Assembly (NCBI RefSeq): GCF_030323865.1
Contig: NZ_CP066362.1
Span: forward strand, 3,720,001-3,784,000
Length of the DNA stretch: 64,000 bases
From: Pseudarthrobacter defluvii
GTDB lineage: Bacteria > Actinomycetota > Actinomycetes > Actinomycetales > Micrococcaceae
Direction: 5' to 3'
Within the stretch, counting starts at the first letter, position 1, and each line of letters begins with the position of its first letter. The notes under the pieces are model-generated. The model had not been told where the DNA came from. It saw nothing but the letters and a program-made list of their open reading frames with translations, and made no database searches. The position numbers and the translations under genes were made by a program. Below are positions 3,676-5,714 of the stretch, in pieces.

Positions 3676-4245
3676 ATGCAGATCATCCGCTTCGCAGAGC
3701 TCAAGGCCGAACCGTGGCGCAACGGCGGCGGGGTAACCAGGGAAATCGCACGCCAGGGCTCCGAAGACGGCGGCTTCGACTGGCGGGTGAGCATCGCTGA
3801 CATTGCCAAGGCAGGGGACTTCTCGGCCTTTGCGGGAATGGAGCGCGTCCTGACGGTTATCGAAGGGGAGCTGCTCCTGCTCTCCGTCGATGGCGCGGAG
3901 CAGCCCCTGGAGAAGTACCGTCCCTTCCGGTTCGACGGCGGGGCCGCAACTGCAGCCAAGCTGCCCACCGGGGACATCAGGGACCTGAACGTCATCACCC
4001 GGGCCGGGGCCTACAAGGGCTTCACATCGATCATTGAGCTGTCCAGGAAGCGCGCCCACCCCGTGTTTGAGGGACAGTTCGGTGTGCTGCTGCAGGGGCA
4101 GGCGAAGGTCAGCCAGGGCGGCGGCGAGCCGGTGGAGCTGGGCCGCTATGACGCCGTGGCCGGCTCGGACGCCGATTCCCCCGAGATCCTGGGCCGCGGC
4201 TTCCTGGCCGTGGTTTCCATCGACGCACAGGAAGCCACAAACTAA
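3676..4245 (+). CDS. HutD/Ves family cupin protein
   Basis: This 189-residue protein begins MQIIRFAELKAEPWRNGGGVTREIA, the conserved N-terminus of HutD (Ves) proteins. It continues with FDWRVSIADI and FAGMERVLTVIEGE. HutD is a bicupin found with histidine-utilisation genes and thought to modulate that pathway, possibly by binding formylglutamate. No hut genes lie near this copy. It is followed by the riboswitch-controlled SMR genes and is probably independent of them. Confidence 0.85.
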   Translation: MQIIRFAELKAEPWRNGGGVTREIARQGSEDGGFDWRVSIADIAKAGDFSAFAGMERVLTVIEGELLLLSVDGAEQPLEKYRPFRFDGGAATAAKLPTGDIRDLNVITRAGAYKGFTSIIELSRKRAHPVFEGQFGVLLQGQAKVSQGGGEPVELGRYDAVAGSDADSPEILGRGFLAVVSIDAQEATN

Positions 4246-4335
4246 GCACCCGCAGGTGGTGAGGTTGGGCACCAACGGTGGCTGGCCGCCGTCGTGCGTT
4301 GCTACGCTGAAATCCAAGGCTTCACACCCGAGCCT

Positions 4336-4376
4336 CCGGACGACGGTTCAGTACCCGGCATGCGACAAGACTGGCC
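4336..4376 (+). promoter_or_regulatory. guanidine-III (ykkC-III) riboswitch
   Basis: The core elements occur in order with correct spacing: CCGGACGA (4336-4343), ACCCGG (4353-4358) and GACAAGAC (4364-4371), then GGCC. P1 forms from CCGG 4336-4339 with CCGG 4355-4358. A pseudoknot pairs the loop bases TCAGT (4348-4352) with ACTGG (4370-4374); these bases differ from the Thermobifida fusca example I remember but still pair. The pseudoknot 3' strand ends three bases before the Shine-Dalgarno AAAGGA (4377-4382) of the first SMR gene. Guanidinium binding would therefore be expected to control ribosome access. Confidence 0.88.
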
Positions 4377-4389
4377 AAAGGAATCTGTC

Positions 4390-4713
4390 ATGTCGTGGGT
4401 AATCCTCATTCTTTCCGGCGCGCTGGAAGCCGTCTGGGCCGCGGCCCTGCACCGGACCTCCCAGGTTTCCGGACGCCGGCGCCTCGCCCCTGCCGCCCTT
4501 TTCCTCGTGGCCGTGGCGGCCAGTACCGGCGGCCTTGCCGTCGCCATGCAGTCCATTCCCACCGGCACCGCCTACGCTGTGTGGGTGGGTGTGGGCGTGG
4601 TCCTCACCTCCGCCTACGCGATGGCCACCAAAGTTGAACGCCCGACGGCGGCGCGCCTGCTGCTGCTCTCCGGCATCGCGGCCTGCGTGGTTGGCCTGAA
4701 GGTGGTGGCGTGA
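4390..4713 (+). CDS. SMR-family guanidinium exporter, subunit 1 (Gdx/SugE type)
   Basis: This is a 107-residue four-helix small multidrug resistance protein. The ATG at 4390 follows AAAGGA by 7 nt and gives MSWVILILSGALEAVWAAAL. The essential glutamate is residue 13, within GxxExxW, the signature of Gdx rather than EmrE-type members. Helix 3 carries GTAYAVWVGVGVV. It forms a pair with the next gene and probably works as a heterodimer exporting guanidinium in exchange for protons. The upstream guanidine-III riboswitch supports that substrate over quaternary ammonium compounds. Confidence 0.88.
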   Translation: MSWVILILSGALEAVWAAALHRTSQVSGRRRLAPAALFLVAVAASTGGLAVAMQSIPTGTAYAVWVGVGVVLTSAYAMATKVERPTAARLLLLSGIAACVVGLKVVA

Positions 4714-5078
4714 TGCTGAGGGGCATGCTTCCGTGGCTGGTGCTCCTGGCGTCCGCGGTCCTTGAAGCAGTCTGGGCAACGGCCCTTGGCCTGTCCGACG
4801 GTTTCAGCAACCCCCTGCCCACCATCGTCTTCGCCGTCACCGCAACCCTGAGCATGCTGGGCCTGGGCATGGCCATCCGCAGTATCCCGCTGGGTACGGC
4901 CTACGCGATCTGGGTGGGCATCGGCGCTGCGCTCACCGTCGGCTGGGCGATGGCCACCGGCGTGGAACCCTTCAGCGTGGTGAAACTGCTGTTCATCGCC
5001 GGCATCGTGGCTTGTGCCGCCGGCCTGAAAGCGCTGCCGGCCGGGAAAAACGCGCCGGCTGCGCGCAGCAGTGACTAG
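4713..5078 (+). CDS. SMR-family guanidinium exporter, subunit 2 (Gdx/SugE type)
   Basis: This is a 121-residue SMR protein whose ATG shares one base with the preceding stop (TGATG); a GTG three bases upstream is an alternative. Four hydrophobic helices are visible, with the glutamate in ASAVLEAVWA and GTAYAIWVGIGAAL in helix 3. A short polar tail (residues 108-121) is longer than usual. Paired SMR genes commonly encode opposite-facing halves of a heterodimer. Translational coupling to subunit 1 agrees with 1:1 assembly. Confidence 0.87.
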   Translation: MLRGMLPWLVLLASAVLEAVWATALGLSDGFSNPLPTIVFAVTATLSMLGLGMAIRSIPLGTAYAIWVGIGAALTVGWAMATGVEPFSVVKLLFIAGIVACAAGLKALPAGKNAPAARSSD

Positions 5079-5087
5079 GCTTTTGCC

Positions 5088-5714
5088 ATGGACTCCCCCG
5101 AGATCGCCCAGGCCGTCGATGCGCTGCGGCGCAGGATGGTGCCTGGCTCGCGGACCATCCTGGGCATCGCCGGGGCGCCGGGGTCCGGAAAGTCCACGTT
5201 CGCGACCTGGCTCCAGGAGCAGTTCAGCCTGGGAACCTCGGTTGTGGTGCCCATGGACGGCTTCCACCTGGGCAACGCGATCATCGAGGGCACGCCGTTG
5301 CGGGCGCGGAAGGGCGCCATCGACACGTTCGACGGCGGCGGGTACCTTTCGCTGCTGCGGCGCCTGGCGTGCCGGGACGAGGCAGTGGTGTACGCGCCGG
5401 AGTTTCGCCGCACCCTGGATGAACCGGTGGCCGCGTCCATCGCCGTTCCCGCCGACGTCCCGCTGGTGATCACCGAGGGGAACTACCTGCTGGCGGACCA
5501 GGAGCCGTGGAAGGGGGTGCGGGCGCAGCTGGACGAGGTATGGTTCCTCGAAACCCCGCACGAGCTGCGGCTGCAGAGGCTGGTGGACCGCCATGTGTCG
5601 TTCGGGATGGACCGGGAGGCCGCGCTTGCGTGGGCCACTGGACCCGACGAGGCCAATGCCCGGCTCATCCAGGCCACCCGCCCGGCCGCGGACCGCGTCA
5701 TACCCTGGCTGTAA
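5088..5714 (+). CDS. P-loop nucleoside/nucleotide kinase family protein (uridine kinase-like)
   Basis: This 208-residue protein has a Walker A motif GAPGSGKST (about residues 28-36). It also has VVPMDGFHL, typical of the PanK/uridine kinase-like group (PRK09270 type), and VITEGNYLL, where the glutamate and following turn serve as the Walker B-like region. The LID-like part is FLETPHELRLQRLVDRHV. Members phosphorylate small molecules, with fructose or other sugars suggested for some; the substrate here is unknown. It lies 9 nt after the SMR pair and may be cotranscribed. Confidence 0.8.
   Translation: MDSPEIAQAVDALRRRMVPGSRTILGIAGAPGSGKSTFATWLQEQFSLGTSVVVPMDGFHLGNAIIEGTPLRARKGAIDTFDGGGYLSLLRRLACRDEAVVYAPEFRRTLDEPVAASIAVPADVPLVITEGNYLLADQEPWKGVRAQLDEVWFLETPHELRLQRLVDRHVSFGMDREAALAWATGPDEANARLIQATRPAADRVIPWL

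Follow-up and report, generated by a model that had tools for sequence, protein, structure and literature searches.

Organization of the locus

The window, that is, the whole 64,000-nt stretch of Pseudarthrobacter defluvii DNA analysed here, carries two adjacent SMR genes preceded by a guanidine-III riboswitch aptamer (Table 1). Both gene products have the SMR fold, with scores above the PF00893 cut-off of 23.7 bits, and no other PF00893 match was found in the genome. The start of SMR2 overlaps the stop of SMR1, and SMR1 codons 102, 106 and 107, located at the ribosome site of SMR2, rank among the most conserved synonymous sites of that gene. Upstream lies a HutD-family gene (PF05962, 158.7 bits; window 3676-4245), which 36 of 48 Micrococcaceae loci carry in the same orientation. 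A nucleoside-kinase-like gene (NF006743; window 5088-5714) begins 9 nt after SMR2; we considered it as an operon partner and rejected it as a conserved part of the system, because 18 of the 48 Micrococcaceae loci, and none of the 33 loci from other groups, have it on the same strand.

Table 1. Features of the riboswitch-SMR locus (window positions unless another source is given)
Feature	Position	Strand	Basis
Candidate extended -10 promoter element TGCTACGCT	4300..4308	+	predicted transcript start near 4314
Guanidine-III riboswitch aptamer (RF01763)	4314..4379	+	53 bits vs gathering score 36, E 3.8e-8
P1, 5' strand CCGG	4336..4339	+	P1 pairs 1 and 3 covary, 19 distinct pair patterns
P2 (pseudoknot), 5' strand UCAGU	4348..4352	+	P2 pairs 3, 4 and 5 covary
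P1, 3' strand CCGG	4355..4358	+	P1 pairs 1 and 3 covary, 19 distinct pair patterns
Conserved strand CGACAAGAC, proposed ligand-free partner of the start region	4363..4371	+	8 of 9 pairs with 4387-4395
P2 (pseudoknot), 3' strand ACUGG	4370..4374	+	P2 pairs 3, 4 and 5 covary
Shine-Dalgarno-like AAAGGA of SMR1	4377..4382	+	sequence; directly after P2
GUC-AUG-UCG start region, proposed masking target	4387..4395	+	complementarity and controls
SMR1, 107 aa, Gdx-type subunit, positive loops 1 and 3	4390..4713	+	PF00893, 62.9 bits; charge bias -6
Shine-Dalgarno-like AAGGTGG of SMR2, inside the end of SMR1	4699..4705	+	sequence
SMR2, 121 aa from ATG 4713 (or GTG 4710), Gdx-type	4713..5078	+	PF00893, 60.4 bits; charge bias +4
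Carboxylase gene row	L094:3404-12135 (own genome C1 227403-236134)

The original prediction, made from the sequence alone, had assigned the leader to the ykkC-III (guanidine-III) class and proposed a search with the corresponding Rfam covariance model. This search returned a significant match over the full model length, exceeding the 36-bit gathering cut-off (53 bits). It is the sole Guanidine-III match in the 4.5 Mb genome (E 6.4e-10 in the genome search), and at gathering thresholds no other Rfam family matches the window. The sequence elements named originally occur in the expected order, namely CCGGACGA (4336-4343), ACCCGG (4353-4358) and GACAAGAC (4364-4371), and the compensated pairing of TCAGT with ACTGG consists of four Watson-Crick pairs and one U-G pair. 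The start at 4336 proposed at that stage is that of the pseudoknot core, whereas the Rfam match, which includes a 5' hairpin, begins at 4314. The riboswitch abuts the ribosome site, as had also been anticipated: AAAGGA follows P2 directly, and the aptamer ends 10 nt upstream of the SMR1 ATG.

The leader also contains a candidate promoter. The motif TGNTANNNT lies 22-29 nt upstream of P1 in 46 of 47 Micrococcaceae leaders, with 0.7% expected per leader; at 15-45 nt from P1 it is present in 9 of the 33 remaining Guanidine-III-type loci and ahead of 10 of 18 variant aptamers. This suggests that transcription would begin at the edge of the aptamer, from an extended -10 promoter; a simple -35/-10 scan found no promoter. 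Two overlapping inverted repeats (GGTG-N8-CACC and a GCACC-AAC-GGTGGC-like sequence; window 4258-4282) lie upstream of the candidate promoter and were seen by eye in many Micrococcaceae leaders.

Covariation in both pseudoknot helices

The pseudoknot was examined in 98 aptamers with 19 distinct pair patterns, comprising 80 of 81 loci (one, L019, is without the core) and 18 variants. Compensated variation was found at pairs 1 and 3 of P1 and at pairs 3, 4 and 5 of P2, and the observed pairing was reached by 0, 0, 0, 4 and 0 of 2000 shuffles, respectively; these shuffles ignore kinship among the sequences and, because the sequences are related, overstate the significance. The remaining four P1 and P2 pairs hardly vary among the 98 aptamers, and non-standard pair cells are left in L046, L075 and a few other loci. 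The structure line of the Rfam family leaves P1 unpaired, and P1 therefore constitutes a test apart from the model. Collectively, covariation backs an H-type pseudoknot formed by P1 and P2: the compensated changes predicted for P2 are real, and P1, absent from the original prediction, covaries as well.

Distribution of the riboswitch-SMR arrangement

A search of genome contigs confirmed at least 275 relatives, of which 80 were kept for analysis; among the matches listed, the closest relative of SMR1 is from Arthrobacter liuii (98% identity). An SMR gene follows the aptamer in the window, and an aptamer scoring above the gathering cut-off lies upstream of the orthologue in 76 of the 80 relatives (19, 20, 19 and 18 of 20). 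The four loci with no aptamer above the cut-off are L019, which has no core, L046, with an altered P1 strand, and L070 and L075, which have other P1 pairs. The first two, both from Micrococcaceae, keep both SMR genes, with the aptamer lost in L019 and altered in L046. Guanidine-III matches are present in 193 of 198 genomes of the genus, the own genome included, and four of these (G014, G041, G080 and G113) have two matches each. In a sample of the phylum, 51 of 396 genomes contain a match at E 0.001, 42 of them over the cut-off, and the class is described as mainly actinobacterial in the consulted part of PMC12186494. The riboswitch-SMR arrangement is known, and it is nearly universal in the genus.

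Variant aptamers were collected by pattern matching in the 396 genomes, which yielded 21 matches; three were not upstream of an SMR gene and were dropped, leaving 18. Guanidine-III variants with CAAAGAC or AAAAGAC-type strands (L070, L075, L095-L103 and L105-L113) lie upstream of SMR genes in Streptomyces-like and Coriobacteriia-like genomes, and their P1 pairs read CCUG/CAGG, UCUG/CAGA or CCCG/CGGG. We considered the CAAAGAC-type aptamers as a separate class and rejected this idea, given that 18 of the 21 precede an SMR gene and retain P1 pairing; they are treated as variants because most score as Guanidine-III, with some below the Rfam cut-off. An aptamer of Gordonia effusa (L073:2404-2491) has about 26 extra bases between P1 and GACAAGAC, yet scores 46.6 bits.

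The SMR proteins are Gdx-type subunits with opposite charge bias

Residues E13, W16, S42, Y59 and W62 are conserved in all 81 SMR1 or singleton proteins (80 loci and the window) and in all 51 SMR2 proteins. Among them, W16 is diagnostic, being conserved in Gdx and replaced by glycine or alanine in Qac proteins, as stated in the consulted part of PMC7695847. The GxxExxW motif, originally noted for the pair, is exact in SMR1 (G10, E13, W16), whereas in SMR2 alanine takes the place of the glycine; at position 10, every one of the 81 SMR1 or singleton proteins has glycine, while 50 SMR2 proteins have alanine and one has serine. The best solved-structure matches of both subunits are 6wk5 (Gdx-Clo) and 8vxu, ahead of EmrE: E values are 5.1e-12 and 1.7e-11 for SMR1, with 1.3e-7 for the best EmrE entry, and 6e-15 and 2.5e-15 for SMR2, with 1e-5 for the best EmrE entry. 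SugE is the old name of Gdx, and the NCBIfam SugE equivalog NF008512 is the best model for both proteins (71.5 bits for SMR1 and 58.8 for SMR2), although neither reaches its curated cut-off of 126 bits, which, as a guess, might be tuned to single-gene proteins. Guanidinium is a well-founded prediction for the substrate of the pair, because W16 is kept, Gdx-Clo ranks above EmrE, and the aptamer belongs to a guanidine-binding class backed by covariation.

Paired SMRs are adjacent duplicated genes with opposite Arg/Lys bias and account for approximately 20% of Gdx transporters, according to the excerpted text of PMC9574504. The window pair is of this kind: SMR1 and SMR2 are biased in opposite directions, with the positive charges of SMR2 at the termini and in loop 2, and such a distribution would fit an antiparallel heterodimer. 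Opposite signs were found in 51 of 51 pairs (-4 to -8 in SMR1, +1 to +8 in SMR2), whereas the 30 singletons have a bias of -1 (29) or 0 (1). Two SMR genes are present in all 47 Micrococcaceae loci (L004-L050), the window, L054, L057 and L075, and one SMR gene was found in the other 30 loci within the DNA examined. A tree built from few columns unites the 51 SMR1 sequences (support 80/95) and leaves SMR2 of L054, L057 and L075 unplaced. In 30 loci (within L051-L083) the riboswitch type found here stands before a lone SMR gene of nearly neutral bias, and in 50 (chiefly L004-L050) before a charge-biased pair. The difference between singletons and biased pairs is the step from dual topology to a fixed heterodimer, in the terms used by PMC9574504 in the section consulted, and these loci provide a natural series for it.

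Possible guanidine metabolism elsewhere in the genome

At a distance of about 3.5 Mb, the contig encodes a permease (TIGR03428) and two DUF1989 proteins in a row with an allophanate hydrolase (TIGR02713) and a urea/guanidine carboxylase (TIGR02712, 1778 bits). The 17 kb surrounding this row gave no Rfam match at E values up to 0.5; the search for other guanidine riboswitch classes covered the window, the fetched loci and these 17 kb. The row looks like a guanidine (or urea) assimilation set outside riboswitch control. The scheme in the available part of PMC12186494 fits guanidine assimilation, yet predicts that carboxylases without a riboswitch use urea.

Complementarity between the pseudoknot-completing strand and the start codon

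The strand that completes the pseudoknot is complementary to the start region of SMR1 (Table 1), with a pairing energy of -11.2 kcal/mol in the window itself. In comparisons with control sets that all ignore relatedness, this feature is pronounced among Micrococcaceae. Of 48 starts, 38 have GTC before the ATG and 40 have TCG as codon 2 (44 have TCN); for comparison, GTC precedes 4 of 243 other ATGs that have a Shine-Dalgarno-like site, and TCG makes up 36 of the 302 serine codons in the rest of SMR1. At its third base, codon 2 is seventh in conservation among 57 four-fold sites, and three of the six sites above it are the codons at the SMR2 ribosome site. The mean start pairing is -12.3 kcal/mol, vs -2.2 to -7.5 in 19 later windows, and the start window has the lowest energy in 40 of 47 loci. 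When the commonest strand is used, pairing of at least -11 kcal/mol in strength is seen at 18 of 26 distinct start windows, vs 1 of 223 ATGs that have a Shine-Dalgarno-like site and about 1% of 1994 ATGs, while 3 of 200 shuffled strands reach the mean start pairing. When the aptamer bases are held unpaired, a crude stand-in for the pseudoknot, which the folding program cannot fold, the mean predicted openness of positions -3 to +6 goes from 0.16 to 0.57 and is higher in 46 of 47 leaders. The excess of complementarity in Micrococcaceae over several controls suggests start-codon masking as the OFF state.

The signal is weaker elsewhere. In 33 loci outside Micrococcaceae, the start mean is -7.6 kcal/mol with later windows down to -8.3, and 7 of these loci have their lowest energy at the start window; 16 have GTC before the start, and 13 have TCG as codon 2. 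When a longer strand is used, the mean for pairing within the lineage is -16.8 in both Micrococcaceae and Microbacteriaceae. The Micrococcaceae strand, however, does slightly better on the starts of Microbacteriaceae (-18.3), and that of Nocardiaceae scores -15.2 and -15.8 on the starts of Micrococcaceae and Microbacteriaceae vs -11.4 on its own. Streptomyces variants pair best with their own starts (-11.2), and in Coriobacteriia variants the strand shows no such pairing with its own starts (-7.4). Comparison of matched and mismatched lineages hence gave no sign of strand-start co-adaptation, except modestly in the Streptomyces variants, and leader stability is no greater than that of shuffled sequences (z -0.16). 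In-line probing as retold in the consulted part of PMC5696562 indicates that P1 and P2 are formed without ligand and that changes occur in the A5-G12 strand, not in GACAAGAC; the probed construct may or may not include the start codon.

Mechanism and alternative explanations

Considering the aptamer family, the covariation of P1 and P2, the linkage to SMR genes, the Gdx residues and the opposite charge biases, we conclude that the locus very probably holds a guanidine-III riboswitch that switches on translation of a heterodimeric guanidinium exporter of the Gdx type. By extension from the family, guanidinium would stabilise the P1/P2 pseudoknot, SMR1 would then be translated, translation of SMR2 would be coupled to that of SMR1 through the stop-start overlap, and the two proteins, as an antiparallel dimer, would exchange guanidinium for protons. 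To this we add a proposal for the ligand-free state, in which CGACAAGAC would pair with GUC-AUG-UCG and mask the start codon more than the Shine-Dalgarno site. Generalized to Micrococcales, and clearest in Micrococcaceae, such switching by start-codon masking with the pseudoknot-completing strand is put forward tentatively, its likelihood being close to, yet short of, an even chance. If true, the aptamer would itself serve as the expression platform, and selection for pairing with the conserved strand would act on codon 2 and the bases before the AUG. The proposal would also give a concrete form to the OFF state of guanidine-III riboswitches, whose mechanism is presented as less well established in the section of PMC5696562 consulted. 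Start-codon masking as such has been described among riboswitches, in the available part of PMC10907184; our partial survey of the literature met no description of it in guanidine-III, an absence that such a survey does not prove.

How the bound form promotes expression admits other answers. The same riboswitch might expose the ribosome site by releasing some competing structure other than the start-codon pairing, a substantial possibility that we would put somewhat below even. The excerpts of PMC5696562 and PMC12186494 describe exposure of the ribosome binding or Shine-Dalgarno site, the former stating that guanidinium stabilises the pseudoknot and is thought thereby to expose the site, with no specific competing structure named in those excerpts; moreover, beyond Micrococcaceae and Microbacteriaceae there is little signal of the pairing. 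On the other hand, the predicted openness of the Shine-Dalgarno site in 46 Micrococcaceae leaders is 0.58 in free RNA vs 0.39 with the aptamer unpaired (the same crude stand-in), which argues that the site would not be masked in the free RNA, and we rejected Shine-Dalgarno masking on these grounds. Transcriptional terminator control was rejected as the main mode as well, there being no plus-strand terminator-like site in 4200-5200; the two sites in this interval, vs 0.8 expected, are both on the minus strand at 5051-5070. The riboswitch could instead mainly control mRNA stability, the bound pseudoknot at the 5' end blocking a scanning RNase such as RNase E with initiation little changed. Guanidine-III is indeed thought to block RNase E scanning, and such protection is reported in the consulted text of PMC12186494, citing a 2021 paper; the likely transcript start at the 5' edge of the aptamer would suit it. 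We nevertheless regard stability as an unlikely main mode, because the aptamer stops so close to the start codon, abutting the Shine-Dalgarno site, and the start region is constrained beyond what stability control needs. Control of stability and of translation can act together.

Doubts about the ligand and the cargo carry far less weight. That the aptamer resembles guanidine-III by chance is extremely improbable, being contradicted by the score, the uniqueness in the genome, the conserved position and the covariation. It is also very unlikely that the pair exports drugs or other cations, in the manner of Qac proteins or of a nicotine-pathway pump, with guanidine merely the inducer. SMR proteins can be promiscuous (PMC7695847, in the part consulted), a two-component SMR pump of the Arthrobacter nicotinovorans nicotine pathway is listed in the excerpts of PMC9574504, and the NCBIfam SugE cut-off is missed; against this, W16 is present in every sequence, Gdx-Clo outscores EmrE, and 76 of 80 relatives share the riboswitch linkage. 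The pair, which apparently occurs in nearly every surveyed genome of the genus, can thus be given a specific predicted substrate and inducer in place of the "multidrug" label.

Comparison with known systems

The window aptamer is like known guanidine-III riboswitches in its full-length match, the H-type pseudoknot of P1 and P2, the SMR target, the CCGGACGA, GUACCCGG and GACAAGAC blocks and the location just upstream of the ribosome site. It is unlike them in the P2 pairs, which are changed by compensation, and in the start-codon complementarity as proposed here. Guanidine-III crystal structures come from Thermobifida fusca, whose aptamer is 16 nt away from the Shine-Dalgarno site, whereas that of the window adjoins it (PMC5696562, excerpts). 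Both window subunits share E13, W16, S42, Y59 and W62 with Gdx-Clo (6wk5); unlike this homodimer, however, the window system consists of two genes with fixed opposite charge bias, with alanine in place of G10 in SMR2 and three extra residues in loop 1 of SMR1. From PSMR heterodimers, which are likewise adjacent duplicated genes with opposite Arg/Lys bias, the pair shows no difference of kind, being one that carries Gdx residues and stands under a guanidine riboswitch.
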